Assembly: GCF_000739615.1 (NCBI RefSeq)
Contig: NZ_BATP01000004.1
Coordinates: forward strand, 1 to 64,000
DNA length: 64,000 nt
DNA from: Haloferula sp. BvORR071
GTDB lineage: Bacteria; Verrucomicrobiota; Verrucomicrobiia; Verrucomicrobiales; Akkermansiaceae
Direction of reading: 5' to 3'
The notes under the pieces are model-generated. The model did no database searches, was not told where the DNA came from, and saw only the letters and a list, made by a program, of their open reading frames with translations. The position numbers and the translations under genes were made by a program. Positions 47,742 to 54,556 of this stretch are shown piece by piece; positions within the stretch are counted from its first letter, which is position 1; every line of letters starts with the position of its first letter.

Positions 47742-48077
47742 ATGTCTACCGCCTTCGGCCCGCTCGATGAATTGATGGGGCGCTTGCTCGAAACATGGGA
47801 GCAGCGCTACGACTTCGAGTTTGATCGGAAAAAGCGAGTTGCCAGCTTCTCACGAGACGGAATGCAGGTGCAGGTCGACGAATTACCAAGCGGCGAACTC
47901 TCGGTCGTGTATGAGCACGCTCTCCACGAGACCGCCACGGAAGTTTGTGGACCTGCGGAGGCGGCCTCACTCATCGAAGCGATTTTGTCGCGGCGGAACC
48001 TCTGCCGCGTTCCGATGCCAAAATGTGGATCCGTCGCAGTTCAGCGACCTTGGTGGAAGCGGATCTTCGGGAGTTAG
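47742..48077 (+). CDS. Hypothetical small cytoplasmic protein (111 aa)
   Basis: Family not recognised. From ATG 47742 (MSTAFGPLDELMG) to a stop at 48077. The protein is soluble with no signal peptide; an alpha/beta core is suggested by FEFDRKKRVASFSRDGMQVQVDELPSG and EAASLIEAILSRRN. It is followed by a hairpin-containing gap. Lower GC in its third part than its neighbours may hint at recent arrival, but the gene is too short to judge. Confidence 0.5.
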   Translation: MSTAFGPLDELMGRLLETWEQRYDFEFDRKKRVASFSRDGMQVQVDELPSGELSVVYEHALHETATEVCGPAEAASLIEAILSRRNLCRVPMPKCGSVAVQRPWWKRIFGS

Positions 48078-48246: not shown

Positions 48247-49194
48247 TCACCATGCGATCTCCGCCACCACCGGCCGGTGGTCGGAACCGAGATCCGGGCC
48301 TACCCAATGCTTCCAGCACTTTGCGGCAAGCGGTTTCCCCGGCGGTCCCCGGTAGAGCAAGTGATCGATCGGAATCGCGAATACCAAGCTTCCGCGTTGC
48401 CACGTTGGGGAGACCGCAGTACCTCTCAATCCTGCGACAAAAAGAGGCTTCATCGCGCTGCTCCATGGAGTCGCATTGAAATCCCCCGCCACTACCACGG
48501 CTCCAGGCTCCTGAGCCATATCGTCGGCGACGGCCTTCAGATAGCTATCACGTTCGTCGGTGTGAGCGGCGCCGCCGGGTGGATTCGGATGAACGCCGTA
48601 GCAGGTCATCACTCCCGCAGGAGCTTGCAGGTGCACCTTCAGGCAAGGCAGCCGGCGCTTGCCTTGAGACTCTATCTCACGATCCAGAATCGGCAGCTTC
48701 GAGTAGAAGACGAAGCCAAAGTTGCCCCGGCCTGCATACTCGACGGAGTAAGGGTAACTCGCCGATAGCAGCCTCAATTCGTTGGCCCAAGTCTCATCTG
48801 CCTCGGGAAAGAAGACCACATCGGGAGCCGTTTCCCGAACCCAGGAAACGGCCTCCGCATACCGCGTGTTTGAAGTCTCCACATTGAATGAAGCGAAACG
48901 CAAAGCGGTTCCTCCCGCTTGTTCGCTTGGGACCACCCAACAAGGGATTACGCGGGCTGCCGGCACCAACAAGAGAGCCACGACAAGAGCAGTCTGCCGC
49001 CAAGCCCTCCGGCAAAGGACAAAAATTAGAACCGCTAGCAGGAAGGCGGCGTACTGAAGTTGGAAATGGTTGAAGAGATCGAAGAACCAGAAACGTCCCC
49101 CGATCCATCCCAGAACCGGCAGAAGCCCCACAACTACAGCAAGGCCGACAAACAAGTTCATGGGCCCAGGTGGGAACAAACGTGGACACTTCAT
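48247..49194 (-). CDS. Membrane-anchored endonuclease/exonuclease/phosphatase family protein (copy A)
   Basis: About 315 residues from ATG 49194 (GTG 49215 overlaps the next gene). Two or three N-terminal hydrophobic segments (FVGLAVVVGLLPVLGWIG, FLLAVLIFVLC) precede the EEP domain. Metal and phosphate-binding motifs are LRFASFNVETSN, VVFFPEADETWAN, VVAGDFNATPWSSAMKPL and the C-terminal GSDHRPVVAEIAW. EEP enzymes cut phosphodiesters in nucleic acids or lipids; here the domain should lie outside the inner membrane. It is the third gene of a tandem triplet, downstream of the two copies at higher coordinates. Confidence 0.8.
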   Translation of the reverse strand: MKCPRLFPPGPMNLFVGLAVVVGLLPVLGWIGGRFWFFDLFNHFQLQYAAFLLAVLIFVLCRRAWRQTALVVALLLVPAARVIPCWVVPSEQAGGTALRFASFNVETSNTRYAEAVSWVRETAPDVVFFPEADETWANELRLLSASYPYSVEYAGRGNFGFVFYSKLPILDREIESQGKRRLPCLKVHLQAPAGVMTCYGVHPNPPGGAAHTDERDSYLKAVADDMAQEPGAVVVAGDFNATPWSSAMKPLFVAGLRGTAVSPTWQRGSLVFAIPIDHLLYRGPPGKPLAAKCWKHWVGPDLGSDHRPVVAEIAW

Positions 49195-49208
49195 CACTCC
49201 AAGAAAAT

Positions 49209-50159
49209 TCACCACGCGATCTCCGCCACCACCGGCCGGTGGTCCGATCCCAGATCGGGGCCGACCCAGCGGCGTTTGAGGCCATCGGACTGAGGCTTAT
49301 CCAATGGACCGCGGTAGAGCAGGTGGTCGATGGGGGTAGCCAAGAGCGGGTTGCCGCGTTCCCAGGTCGGCGAGACCGAGCGCCCCTGCAATCCCGCAGC
49401 GAAGAGCGGCTTCATCGCACGACTCCAGATCGTCGCGTTCAGATCTCCTGCCAGCACCACCGCTCCAGGTTCGGCCTTCACTTGCTCGGCAATAATCAGA
49501 AGGAAGGCATCGCGTTCATTCGCCCAAAACTCGGTGGCGGGCGGCACCGGATGCGCGCCGAAGAAGGTGAACTCTCCTTGCGGACCTTGAAGGCGGAGCT
49601 TCAATAGAGGCAGCTCCATTTCGCCACAGGGAATGATCTCTTGTTTCAGGATGGGTAGCTTCGAGTAGCAGGCAAAGCCGAAGTTTCCTTCCACGATGTG
49701 CTCCACCGCATGCGGATGGCTGGCGAGCAGCGGCTTCAGGTGCTCCGCCCACACTTCATCCACCTCGGGCAGGAAGATCACATCCGGATCGGTCTCGCGG
49801 ATCCACGAAACGGCATCCGCGTAACGCTCGTTTGCGGTCAGCACATTGAAGGAAGCGAAGCGCAGGGACGCGCCGATCGCCGGCTTGTGCAACGAAGGCA
49901 GGGATGGCTCCGCTAGCCTAACAAGTGGCACCGCCAGGAACAGCGCAGTCAGCAAGGCCAGCCGCCATGCCTTCCAGCAGCCGAGACAGATAACCGCAAT
50001 CGCAAGGGCGCCTGCATACTGCCATTGGAAATGATTGAAGAGGTCCAGCAGCCAGTAGCTGCCGCCCAGCCAGCCAACGATCGGCAAGATGCCTGCAATC
50101 ACTGCCAAGCGCGCGATGAATGGCTTGGGCTTGGGCATGAGGACGGATCGCCAGGTCAT
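49209..50159 (-). CDS. Membrane-anchored endonuclease/exonuclease/phosphatase family protein (copy B)
   Basis: About 316 residues from ATG 50159. N-terminal membrane segments (LAVIAGILPIVGWLGGSYWLL, AGALAIAVICLG) are followed by the EEP domain with LRFASFNVLTANERY, VIFLPEVDEVWAEHL, VVLAGDLNATIWSRAMKPLF and the same C-terminal GSDHRPVVAEIAW. Protein and DNA are close to copy A: the last 36 bp before the stop (CACCACGCGATCTCC... on the plus strand) differ at one base. The gene lies 14 bp after copy C and 14 bp before copy A, so the three form an operon. Confidence 0.82.
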   Translation of the reverse strand: MTWRSVLMPKPKPFIARLAVIAGILPIVGWLGGSYWLLDLFNHFQWQYAGALAIAVICLGCWKAWRLALLTALFLAVPLVRLAEPSLPSLHKPAIGASLRFASFNVLTANERYADAVSWIRETDPDVIFLPEVDEVWAEHLKPLLASHPHAVEHIVEGNFGFACYSKLPILKQEIIPCGEMELPLLKLRLQGPQGEFTFFGAHPVPPATEFWANERDAFLLIIAEQVKAEPGAVVLAGDLNATIWSRAMKPLFAAGLQGRSVSPTWERGNPLLATPIDHLLYRGPLDKPQSDGLKRRWVGPDLGSDHRPVVAEIAW

Positions 50160-50172
50160 CTCTTACTCAAGG

Positions 50173-51114
50173 TTACCACGATAGCTCCGCGACCACTGGC
50201 CGGTGGTCTGATCCGATATCCGGGCCGATCAAGAAGCTCTTGCAACTCATCCCCTCACCGCGAAACAGGATGTGGTCGATGGGGATGCCGAGCACCGGAT
50301 TGCCGCGGCTCCAGGTGGGCCCGGGAGCCTTGCCCTTCGAGGCATCCTGCAGGCCAAGCTTGTAGAGGTCCTTGGTCTTCGCACTCCAGCGCGTGGCATT
50401 GAAATCCCCGACCAAAACCACCCTGCCCTGCTCTTGTGAGACCTCCTGCTCCGCTGCGGCCATGAAGTCGTCCAATGCTTTCGCCCAGTCCGGGGTAAGC
50501 GGCGGCAGCGGATGCCCGGCAAAGAAAACCAGCGGCCCGCCCGGGGTCGCCAGCCGCGCTTCCAGCAGGCGAAACTCGATCTTGCTCACCCGGTGCATCT
50601 CGAAGCTAGAGATAGGGAACTTGGAGAAGAAGGCCATGTCCGGGCCATCATTGATGAAGTGCGGGTACACGCCCTCCAGCGCCTTCAATGCCTCCGTCCA
50701 TTCTTCGCTCACCTCCGTGAAGAAAATCGCATCAGGCAGCGTTTCCTTCACCCAAGCGATGGTCCGCGCATGCTTTTGATTTGAGGCCAGCACATTGAAG
50801 GATGCGATCTTCACGACCGTCGAACCCTGCGCCACCGCCGGCGCCGGTAGATAGCCCGGGACGACCCGCGATAACGGGATGAGTGAGAGCAGCGCTGCCA
50901 CCATCGCCATTCGCCGCGACTGCAGCCTCAGAAGCAGGATCGCGCATAGCAGGAGGAACCAAGCGTATTGATACTGGAAGTGATTGCAGAGATCGAGGAG
51001 CCAGAAGCTCCCGCCGCCGATCCAGCCCAGCAAGGGCAGCAGACCTGTCACCACGGCAAGGAAACCGATCAGGCGCGTAAGCCACTTCGTAATGCCGTCG
51101 CTGGGTTTGCTCAT
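50173..51114 (-). CDS. Membrane-anchored endonuclease/exonuclease/phosphatase family protein (copy C)
   Basis: About 313 residues from ATG 51114 (MSKPSDG); ATG 51132 is an alternative. It has the same plan: two N-terminal hydrophobic helices (LIGFLAVVTGLLPLLGWIGG, AWFLLLCAILLL) and an EEP domain with VKIASFNVLASNQKH, AIFFTEVSEEWTEAL, VVLVGDFNATRWSAKTKDL and GPDIGSDHRPVVAELSW. It is the most divergent of the triplet and lies first in the operon, with the sigma-factor gene divergent upstream. The expected site is the periplasm. Confidence 0.82.
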   Translation of the reverse strand: MSKPSDGITKWLTRLIGFLAVVTGLLPLLGWIGGGSFWLLDLCNHFQYQYAWFLLLCAILLLRLQSRRMAMVAALLSLIPLSRVVPGYLPAPAVAQGSTVVKIASFNVLASNQKHARTIAWVKETLPDAIFFTEVSEEWTEALKALEGVYPHFINDGPDMAFFSKFPISSFEMHRVSKIEFRLLEARLATPGGPLVFFAGHPLPPLTPDWAKALDDFMAAAEQEVSQEQGRVVLVGDFNATRWSAKTKDLYKLGLQDASKGKAPGPTWSRGNPVLGIPIDHILFRGEGMSCKSFLIGPDIGSDHRPVVAELSW

Positions 51115-51230
51115 CGTTCGTCGTCGGCACATCCTTCCTGCTTCCAGCAGCCACGGCAAGAACCCCGGCTTACGGCGCATGAAGGAGAGGTGAATTTTTC
51201 TGTCTCATCCCGGGTGGCTGCGGTGTCTTG

Positions 51231-53282
51231 ATGGAAACGATGGCGGACAATCCATTCGAACTTCTGCAACGCTTCAACCGTGACCGCTCCGAAGCGGCCT
51301 TCCGCGAACTGGTCCGGCAGCACTCGCCGCTGGTCTTTGCCACCGCCCTGCGCCGCCTGAATGGCGATCGCAGTGCCGCGCAGGATGTGATGCAGGAGGT
51401 CTTCACCCTGCTGGTGCGGAAATCCTCCGGACTGGATCCAGCGCAGCTTTCCGCGTGGCTCTACCGCCAGACCTGCCGCCGGGCAGCCAACCACGTCCGC
51501 AGCGAAAGCCGGCGGCGCCAGCGCGAACTCGTCTCCATGGAAGCCATGAACCACCCTCCCACCCCTGATGAGTCCGACCGCGAACTGCTGGCCCGCGAAC
51601 TCGACTCCGCGATGCTCAGCCTGCCTTCGTCCGACCGGAGCGCGCTGGTCATGCGCTATTTCGAGGATCGAGATTTCCGCAGCGTGGCGGGAACCCTTGG
51701 CTTGAGCGAGGTCGCCGCCCGCAAGCGTGTCTCGCGGGCCTTGGAGAAGCTCGCAGCCGTCCTCAAGCGGCGCGGCATCACAACCGGTAGCGCCTTACTC
51801 GGCAGCACGATGAGCAGCATGGGGCGAAGCATTCCACCAGATTCCATGGTGGCGAAGGTTTCACTGCAGGCCATGAAGTCTCTACCCGCAGCGGGATCAC
51901 CATCGCTCTCCGGGCTCATGAAGCCTGCGCTCGCGGGTGTCGCCTTGGTGTCCCTCATCTCTGCTGGCCTCCTCGCGAAGTCCCGCCCGACACCAGTGCC
52001 TCCGGTGCCCATGGCAAGCACTCCCACATCCGCCCGAGAATCCGGACTCGCCTATCTGCTGCGACCGGTGACGGATACCTCGATCGAAAACCTGATCGCG
52101 GAGATCAAACGCAACCAGGCGGGTCCCGGACATTCACTGGTGACGCTGCGGCTGAGGGCAATTCTCGATCGCGTCGCCATCGCGGATATCCCTGCATTCG
52201 TCGTGCTGGCCGGGGAAAAGCTCACGGTGGCCGAGCAGACTGCCTGCTACGCCCCCCTGTTTGAGCGCTGGCTCGACCAAGATCCGGCGGCAGCGCTGAG
52301 CTACGTCCTCCTCAACAAGCCAGGGGAGAAGGTCGATGCCGAGACATCCACCTACATGTTAGGCAATCTCTTCCGGGCTTGGGTGGAGAAGGACCTGAAG
52401 CAAGCGGATGCCTGGCTACGTGAGCATTGGGGCGACGAGGGATTCAAGGAGCATCGCTGGAACGGCAGCGTGGGCGAAGGATTCGCGATGGAGGTGGCGA
52501 ACGACTATGTCTTGCGCGGCAACGTAAGCGACGCCTTCGAGTTCATCCGAGCTCTGCCGAATGCCGATGCGCGACGCCGTTGCTTGCGCGGACTCGCTGG
52601 CGAAGATCCCTATGGCAACGCTTGGCACAATATCGATCCGGATCGCCTGTTAGAGGTCCTCCGGGCCTTATCGGGATTTCCCGAAACAGAGCCGGCGGGA
52701 GAGGCACGCGTGCTCTTGTGGCAAAGCCTCAACCGAAGCCGGCCGGAAGACGCCGCGAAGGTGCTAGCAGCCCTGAGCCCGCAGGAACACTTCGAAGCCG
52801 CCCTCGCCAAGACCGGTCACTACAGCAAGCTCGCCTCGCGGACCAAAACAGCCGGCGGCGGAACGATTTCTCATTTCGACCAGATCACGGATACCACCGC
52901 AGGTGAAGCCGACGCGATGGCCGCAGGTCTTGCCGCCGGGCTTTCGCGCCAAGAGATCTTGAAGGCCATCGGTGCTGCACTGGTATCCAAGGGCAATCCC
53001 GCAGTGGCAGTGCCGTGGCTGGCGGGACACCGCGAGGAAGTCGAAGTCGACGCGGTTTTACTCGGGGCGATCCGGGATGCTGCGCGGCGGGAGGATCACA
53101 GCAATCTTATCCTCTGGGCTGCGTGCCTGAGGGATCCTGATCTGCGCATGAGTATCGCGCGAGCTGGATTCCGCCAGATCCTCGCTCAACCGGGCGATAC
53201 CGCGAAGAACCTATTGGCCGATCCCAGCTTGGATGCCGGGTTGCGGGAAGAACTCGTGGAAATCCGTGATGCCAAGCCATGA
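51231..53282 (+). CDS. ECF sigma factor fused by a membrane helix to a large C-terminal repeat domain
   Basis: 683 residues from ATG 51231 (TTG 51228 also possible). Residues 20-95 are sigma region 2 (FRELVRQHSPLVFATALRRL, AAQDVMQEVFTLL, LYRQTCRRAANHVR). Residues 125-178 are region 4 (SLPSSDRSALVMRYFED, FRSVAGTLGLSEVAARKRVSRAL). A single membrane helix lies at 231-249 (KPALAGVALVSLISAGLLA). The C-terminal 430 residues have W..xDPxAA repeats such as RWLDQDPAAALSY and AWVEKDLKQADAW. The sigma part would be in the cytoplasm and the repeat part outside, or the membrane segment may be a tether. It overlaps the next gene by 4 bp. Confidence 0.82.
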   Translation: METMADNPFELLQRFNRDRSEAAFRELVRQHSPLVFATALRRLNGDRSAAQDVMQEVFTLLVRKSSGLDPAQLSAWLYRQTCRRAANHVRSESRRRQRELVSMEAMNHPPTPDESDRELLARELDSAMLSLPSSDRSALVMRYFEDRDFRSVAGTLGLSEVAARKRVSRALEKLAAVLKRRGITTGSALLGSTMSSMGRSIPPDSMVAKVSLQAMKSLPAAGSPSLSGLMKPALAGVALVSLISAGLLAKSRPTPVPPVPMASTPTSARESGLAYLLRPVTDTSIENLIAEIKRNQAGPGHSLVTLRLRAILDRVAIADIPAFVVLAGEKLTVAEQTACYAPLFERWLDQDPAAALSYVLLNKPGEKVDAETSTYMLGNLFRAWVEKDLKQADAWLREHWGDEGFKEHRWNGSVGEGFAMEVANDYVLRGNVSDAFEFIRALPNADARRRCLRGLAGEDPYGNAWHNIDPDRLLEVLRALSGFPETEPAGEARVLLWQSLNRSRPEDAAKVLAALSPQEHFEAALAKTGHYSKLASRTKTAGGGTISHFDQITDTTAGEADAMAAGLAAGLSRQEILKAIGAALVSKGNPAVAVPWLAGHREEVEVDAVLLGAIRDAARREDHSNLILWAACLRDPDLRMSIARAGFRQILAQPGDTAKNLLADPSLDAGLREELVEIRDAKP

Positions 53283-54556
53283 ATGCTTTCCTCCAGCGCC
53301 AAGTCCTCAGCTTCGGGTGTGCCGCTTTGCTCACTGCGGCAGTTTGGTATGCCTGCTGGCCGCAGAGGCTGCCGGTGGCAAGTGCCCGATCTCATGCCGA
53401 GCCTTCACCACAGGAGCCAAAGTCCAAGAACTGGCAGGAGGCCGTGGCCCAAACTGCAAGCGCGGAAGGCAATGAGGCGCGCCTGGCCGCGGCCGTTCGA
53501 CTGGGTGAGGTGCCCACAGCCGAGATCCCGGCGCTTCTCGATTCGATCGAGTTGGTCAAGGACCGGCAGCTGACTCTTGCGGCCAAAACCTTGCTGATCC
53601 GCTGGGCCTCCGAGGATGGCAAGGCAGCCGCGGAGTGGTCGTGGCTCAAGTTCCGGGCGGATGGCATGTGGTATTTCGTGCTCCTGGAGATCGCGGGGGC
53701 ATGGGCATGGCGAGACCCGGAGGGCCTTGCCAAGTGGACGATGGAGATCGTGGCGCAGCAAGGCCCCGGCTTTCAAGACAGCCTGTCAGTTGAGGAAGTC
53801 TTGAAGCGCGATGTGCCGGTGATCGAAAGGGGGCGGGGCGCGAAGATCTGCGAGCTGCTGATCCGACAATCGCCGCGCTGGGCCTTCGAGCTCTTCCTGA
53901 AGCTTCCGGGATGGTCCACCGGAGATGGCTTCATGACCTCCTCGCTGCAGAGTCCCGAGCAGATCCAAGATGCTCTGCTGGCCTTCGACCTTGAGTCTAT
54001 GAATCTGGATGCGACTCGCGGAATCAGCGGCCCTGCCATCTACGCCCACAGCCTGCTCACCGATTGGCGGAAATTGGATCCGCAGGGCTTTGCATCCTCG
54101 CCTTATGCCAAGTATCTCAAGCTGGGGATTTCGAATGAGGAGATTGGCCAATACCAACGCTGGACGACCCTGCCGAAGGAAGAGCGCGGCACAGCCGCCG
54201 CGAAGATGCTGGAGGCTGGAACTAACCAAGCGCGGTCCGGCTTGGTGCTTTCGATGACGGAGGATTGGGCCAAGGAAGACCCCGCGGCTTGCCGCGAGTG
54301 GCTGGCTTCATTGCCAGCGGAATTGGCCGAGGCCGGAGCCCGGCCCTTCGCGATGGCAGCGGGCGGGAGCTACGTCGAATCGATCTGGAAGGAGAGTGAG
54401 TCATTTGACACCTCGCTCCGTGAAGGATGCCGGATCGACTCCCACAAGGCCTGGCGGAAAGACCATCCGGAGGGCAATCCGGACATGAATGGCTGGAGTG
54501 AGGAGGCGAAGCAGGCGTGGAGCGATCTGGATGCGCTGTGGCGGGTGGAGAGATGA
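53279..54556 (+). CDS. Membrane-anchored W-x3-DPxAA repeat protein coupled to the sigma factor
   Basis: 425 residues. The N-terminus has one hydrophobic helix (QVLSFGCAALLTAAVWYACW). The rest is helical and contains repeats of the same type as in the sigma factor: RWASEDGKAAAEWSWL, AWAWRDPEGLAKWTM, DWAKEDPAACREWLASLP and others, spaced irregularly. Such repeats are common in verrucomicrobial exported proteins and have no known function. The start overlaps the sigma-factor stop (ATGA 53279-53282), so translation is coupled. It may bind or regulate the sigma factor, as an anti-sigma partner would, but there is no direct evidence. Confidence 0.72.
   Translation: MNAFLQRQVLSFGCAALLTAAVWYACWPQRLPVASARSHAEPSPQEPKSKNWQEAVAQTASAEGNEARLAAAVRLGEVPTAEIPALLDSIELVKDRQLTLAAKTLLIRWASEDGKAAAEWSWLKFRADGMWYFVLLEIAGAWAWRDPEGLAKWTMEIVAQQGPGFQDSLSVEEVLKRDVPVIERGRGAKICELLIRQSPRWAFELFLKLPGWSTGDGFMTSSLQSPEQIQDALLAFDLESMNLDATRGISGPAIYAHSLLTDWRKLDPQGFASSPYAKYLKLGISNEEIGQYQRWTTLPKEERGTAAAKMLEAGTNQARSGLVLSMTEDWAKEDPAACREWLASLPAELAEAGARPFAMAAGGSYVESIWKESESFDTSLREGCRIDSHKAWRKDHPEGNPDMNGWSEEAKQAWSDLDALWRVER

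Follow-up and report, generated by a model that had tools for sequence, protein, structure and literature searches.

VanJ is laid out as a membrane protein that carries an EEP domain, and this domain is extracytoplasmic. EEP domains are also found in TDP2, a DNA repair enzyme that has no membrane anchor of the type described below, in neutral sphingomyelinase, and in proteins matching the PRK05421 models NF003839-NF003842, which we take to be of the E. coli YafD type and which are annotated just as members of the endonuclease/exonuclease/phosphatase family. In the literature that we searched, VanJ is the only membrane-anchored EEP protein with a phenotype. The passages of PMC4790382 and PMC6001138 that deal with VanJ describe it as a membrane protein (PMC4790382) that raises resistance to teicoplanin by a mechanism not yet understood (PMC4790382, PMC6001138), and in PMC7325946 the S. 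toyocaensis VanJ orthologues are said not to have been investigated for their roles.

The stretch of DNA that we analysed (64,000 nucleotides, hereafter the window) contains three adjacent genes, A, B and C, whose products share a plan of N-terminal hydrophobic segments followed by an EEP domain. The VanJ/StaP model derived from Streptomyces (NCBIfam NF000373) is the top-scoring NCBIfam model for both B and C, but the window comes from a different phylum and contains three tandem paralogues. NF003842 matches 22 of 39 members of the family, but A, B and C score below its cut-off (19.6-25.7 against 144 bits). The EEP domains of TDP2 and neutral sphingomyelinase have the same fold as the window proteins (Z 25-26 across ~210-220 residues), and the catalytic E, H and GD.N of TDP2 align with them. 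Sequence identity to these two enzymes is ~20%, however, and their substrates are not transferable to the window proteins.

Gene layout, EEP domains and membrane segments

The three genes lie in the order C-B-A on the minus strand (48247-51114). They are separated by gaps of 13 nt (C/B) and 14 nt (B/A, with A counted from ATG 49194), and are likely to form an operon. The original prediction of three adjacent EEP genes of one plan was borne out, with helices and then an EEP domain encoded by each. The features of the locus are:

50173..51114, minus strand: EEP gene C, 313 aa, first gene of the probable operon; three TM helices and an EEP domain
49209..50159, minus strand: EEP gene B, 316 aa, second gene; three TM helices and an EEP domain
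48247..49194, minus strand: EEP gene A, 315 aa counted from ATG 49194, third gene
48247..48306, minus strand: 3' end of A, encoding the SDHRPVVAE catalytic motif
51240..53282, plus strand: ECF sigma factor gene, divergent from C; predicted TM segment and long C-terminal part
53279..54556, plus strand: gene for a 425-aa protein with a hydrophobic segment at the N-terminus and no Pfam match

The listed open reading frame of A starts at GTG 49215 and overlaps the stop codon of B; a start at ATG 49194 gives an N-terminal length equal to that of B. An in-frame ATG at 51180 would lengthen C by 22 residues. The likely next gene downstream of A (47742-48077) is convergent. Promoter and terminator scans returned no promoter-like or terminator-like site. 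A horizontal gain of A, which we also considered, seems unlikely: GC content around the genes is 0.59-0.60, compared with 0.58-0.66 between 40 and 60 kb of the window, an unremarkable composition.

PF03372 matches all three proteins over its entire length (profile positions 1-225 of 225), with E-values of 1.1e-24 (A), 2.1e-23 (B) and 3.7e-27 (C) and scores of 83.6-95.9 bits against a cut-off of 24.5. The motifs GDFNAT and SDHRPV had been predicted for each protein. SDHRPVV is indeed present in all three and GDFNAT in A and C, but B has GDLNAT instead. In an alignment of 41 homologues, which contains A, B and C and omits a split gene of genome G010 (see below), the residues N105, D126, E132, S166, H203, P207, G238, D239, N241, D278, G304, S305, D306 and H307 (B numbering) are invariant. 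A 39-row alignment (A2), which drops three of the 42 unique proteins (the split fragment, L027 and L038), yields the identical set. Among these invariant residues, N105, E132, H203, D239, N241, D278, D306 and H307 are presumably the catalytic positions, and a phmmer alignment to TDP2 places E132, H203 and GD.N opposite the corresponding TDP2 motifs. As the catalytic residues are invariant across the 41 homologues, A, B and C included, none of the three proteins has lost an active-site residue, a loss that would have counted against the earlier interpretation.

Three hydrophobic segments precede the EEP domain in A, B and C, which supports the predicted membrane anchoring. Positive residues occur ahead of TM1 and between TM2 and TM3, a pattern from which the EEP domain is predicted to face outward. 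From hydropathy and charge, we infer a cytoplasmic N terminus and a periplasmic EEP domain. Two residues of the TM1-TM2 segment, outside the catalytic domain, are each conserved in 37 of the 41 rows (W36 and H43); their conservation would fit a function at the surface of the membrane.

Divergence of the copies and the shared 3' end

A, B and C are old, diverged paralogues. Protein identity over the three pairs ranges from 43 to 54% (A/B 54%, A/C 43%) and DNA identity is 61% (A/B), 53% (A/C) and 56% (B/C). The corresponding pS values are 0.68, 0.73 and 0.62, with synonymous sites near saturation, and this degree of synonymous divergence speaks against a recent duplication. The A-B value equals the pS between B and its G003 orthologue (0.68), both being near saturation. 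Estimates of dN/dS for the pairs are 0.19-0.41, all below 1, and are rough because dS is near saturation.

A recent duplication or gene conversion had been proposed for A and B on account of almost identical DNA at their 3' ends, with pairwise DNA alignment and synonymous divergence as the check. The alignment does not support the proposal, as divergence is high throughout except for ~60 bp at the A/B 3' ends. The near identity itself is genuine over these ~60 bp, which encode a nearly invariant peptide with a catalytic motif. The 60 nt at the 3' end of A, stop codon included (48247-48306), are 90% identical to the 3' end of B (49209-49268) and 78% identical to that of C (50173-50232). Over the last 20 codons, A and B have 87% identical DNA and 19 of 20 residues in common.

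Could a recent tandem duplication or gene conversion nevertheless have homogenised A and B? The longest uninterrupted match, 29 nt, exceeds what is expected when the proteins are fixed and the codons redrawn (P = 0.003), the last 12 codons agree at 34 of 36 nt (P = 0.014 by synonymous-codon redraw), and a tree with A as sister to window B is not rejected (p-AU 0.418; see below). However, the overall A/B pS is 0.68, and codons for shared residues are not significantly more often identical at the 3' end than elsewhere (11 of 17 versus 64 of 143, P = 0.13). With synonymous codons redrawn, P lies between 0.014 and 0.11 for the A/B 3' end and is 0.037 for its last 20 codons. B and C, although more distant from each other, have a bigger excess over 20 codons at the 3' end (P = 0.0026 versus 0.037), and thus a codon preference shared at the motif fits equally well. 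In a shuffle of codon columns, a test that ignores protein constraint, the best 20-codon window was reached in 51 of 10,000 trials. We consider homogenisation of A and B quite improbable, and attribute most of the 3' similarity to protein constraint together with shared codon preference; a tiny conversion patch, of ~60 bp at most, is possible at the A/B 3' end. By eye, the HRPV codons of the motif, CACCGGCCGGTG, are perfectly palindromic in A as well as in B (within 48247-48306 and 49209-49268), probably as a side effect of a choice of GC-rich codons.

Relatives and genomic neighbourhoods

At an E-value of 1e-10, B is matched in 28 of 57 genomes, its own included; distant unlinked paralogues also appear at this threshold in several genomes, among them C64 of the window's own genome (31% identity). 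Within the genus, four relatives have a tandem C+B pair (G003, G007, G009 and G010) and one has B alone (G012). Related EEP genes occur in other Verrucomicrobiota: at an E-value of 1e-25, a survey of the order finds A matched in 101 of 386 genomes and a survey of the phylum finds B matched in 47 of 387, with the window's own genome counted in both. Unlike the window triplet, they nearly always come as one match per genome. With at most five candidates scored per genome, so that extra weak copies may be missed, more than one match was found in the order only in the window's own genome (G000, three), in G003, G007, G009 and G010 (a tandem pair each) and in G052 (two, on separate contigs), and in the phylum only in G000, G003, G009 and G010; the two samples overlap, and G007 is not among the listed phylum genomes. 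Since multiples elsewhere in these surveys are pairs at most, a triplet was seen in the window's own genome alone. The local expansion that had been postulated is real but small, a triplet in place of a pair within a single genus. In total, the genome has 20 PF03372 matches, which is high yet unexceptional given the range of 6 to 21 across the 18 genomes that represent the genus, its own among them.

We built two trees, the first leaving out the split G010 fragment and the distant rows L056-L058, the second comprising 22 of the earlier rows and five new ones (L117-L120 and L122). Window C groups with the C genes of the relatives (support 100/97 in the first tree, 100/98 in the second) and window B with the B gene of G003 (98/92 and 87/82). 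The best tree in the AU analysis places A with the C group (55/41), and neither A as sister to window B (p-AU 0.418) nor A with all B genes (p-AU 0.443) is rejected. The second tree puts A next to two rows on long branches, a weakly supported position (68/27). No clear orthologue of A was found among the rows placed in either tree, and its closest match outside its own genome in the order survey is the B gene of G007 (47%). The window's genome has either added A or is alone in having kept it.

C-type genes are present in another genus of the family, including contigs titled as Akkermansia muciniphila MAGs, and G388, a genome from a further genus, carries a gene that shares 55% identity with B. 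Judging from these sequences, C and B may have separated before the genus arose, though the B group is not firmly supported. On two of the contigs titled Akkermansia muciniphila MAG (L051 and L052), the C-type EEP genes are identical to genes of genus g10. Genus g3, which we guess to be Akkermansia, contributes no genome to the 101 matches in the order. The titles of these two contigs may be mislabelled. The single C-type genes of L051-L053 come after a 1159-aa ORF. In G010, a one-contig genome, the B orthologue (L104) is split over overlapping frames (G010:C1:5014463-5015098 and 5015086-5015406), and is either a broken gene or the result of a sequencing error.

The EEP genes had been described as divergent from a membrane sigma factor, and this description is correct. 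The divergent gene starts at 51228 or 51240 and encodes an ECF-type protein (TIGR02937, 72.7 bits against a cut-off of 42.9) with a predicted TM segment (residues 234-252), a second hydrophobic stretch (residues 311-329) and a C-terminal part of ~430 residues. It overlaps the gene for the 425-aa protein by 4 nt. Its architecture is of a known kind, as PMC8999054 describes ECF sigma factors whose C-terminal extensions are bound to the membrane, with proteolysis activating some of these factors. In both G003 and G010, a homologue of the 425-aa protein gene is flanked by two sigma copies.

The sigma gene adjoins the EEP genes in three of the six genus genomes that have B (G000, G003 and G010). 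The pairs of G003 and G010 resemble the window triplet in lying beside the sigma gene and near an ORF whose sequence looks like that of elongation factor G. Neither neighbour is present in the stretches fetched around the G007 and G009 pairs and the G012 B gene, and the closest sigma homologue of G007 (44% identical) is on a different contig from the EEP pair. The divergent sigma factor may control the triplet, but the pair (or B alone) is located elsewhere in G007, G009 and G012. The three sigma-adjacent genomes have GTTCTTGCC upstream of C (window 51060-51180, L100 and L104), possibly a promoter element. As a clue to the substrate we discarded the neighbourhood: the neighbours vary between genomes and name no substrate.

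Predicted structure and candidate substrates

Of the three proteins, B alone was folded. The AlphaFold2 model, computed from the 39-row alignment, has a mean pLDDT of 93.9 and a pTM of 0.91. It consists of a helix (residues 11-33), a short helix (36-43) and two further helices (45-61 and 65-86), followed by an EEP domain of mixed strands and helices that conforms to the four-layer EEP fold (Z up to 25.9 against solved EEP domains). The best matches among solved structures are TDP2 (Z 25.9), the bacterial EEP protein 4ruw (Z 25.5) and human neutral sphingomyelinase (Z 25.2). Because these top matches are tied within 1 Z, the fold cannot tell DNA from lipid or small-molecule substrates.

One reading is that A, B and C are membrane-tethered periplasmic nucleases, which would degrade incoming or extracellular DNA and so scavenge phosphate or nucleotides. 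Foldseek and VIA both give TDP2 chains as their best matches, exodeoxyribonucleases lead a profile search of PDB sequences (best E 2.5e-11) with sphingomyelinases lower, and there are weak matches to exodeoxyribonuclease III models (A at 1.3e-4; 11 of 39 members match TIGR00633). Yet A misses the TIGR00633 (xth) cut-off by far (21.6 against 99.05 bits) and B and C have no match at 1e-3, so that membership of the exodeoxyribonuclease III family was rejected. The invariant H203, moreover, aligns with the TDP2 His; to our knowledge, ExoIII-type enzymes lack a His at this position. The EEP domains are acidic (pI 5.4-6.3), although the same is true of DNase I, and a Pfam scan of five window neighbours identified sigma regions, DUF2961, DUF3592 or nothing. 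Taken together, we regard DNA degradation as an unlikely function. The exported nucleases for nutrient scavenging of the original prediction find no support in acidic domains with a predicted membrane anchor rather than export, nor does its suggestion of defence, as PADLOC families gave no match for six proteins at E 0.01.

The VanJ model offers another possibility, namely that these are enzymes of tolerance to glycopeptides or other cell-wall antibiotics. Its E-value is 1.6e-8 for C, with a match that spans positions 52-330 of 330, and 2.1e-6 for B, and 15 of the 39 family members match it at E 1e-3. The scores of C (34.3 bits) and B (27.4 bits), however, are far from the curated cut-off of 700, which led us to reject VanJ (NF000373) membership; A has no match at 1e-3, and none of 19 genomes has a protein above the cut-off. 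In addition, Gram-negative outer membranes already keep out large glycopeptides, according to a passage in PMC4790382. A VanJ-like role thus seems very unlikely.

Our best explanation, to which we give roughly even credence, is that A, B and C are membrane-anchored, periplasm-facing phosphoesterases with a membrane-proximal, probably lipid-linked substrate, and that their specificities have diverged. Transcription of C would probably start from the short divergent region beside the sigma gene. The EEP domain would then cut, in a Mg2+-dependent manner, a phosphodiester or a phosphomonoester/pyrophosphate bond of an envelope substrate close to the membrane, probably one linked to lipid, and A, B and C would each have a different specificity. 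A far more speculative proposal, which we think has little chance of being correct, is an envelope-stress circuit, in which the membrane-tethered ECF sigma factor senses damage through its large outer domain and induces the three periplasmic EEP enzymes, each acting on different polyprenyl- or glycerol-phosphate lipids by dephosphorylating or remodelling them. The literature that we searched describes no such system for the recycling or remodelling of lipid carriers.

The triplet is a new tandem arrangement of a known kind of enzyme, and otherwise an ordinary paralogue expansion. Membrane-anchored EEP proteins occur widely, and a natural operon of three diverged copies that all appear intact would provide a compact set for asking what these proteins cut and how paralogues split specificities between them.
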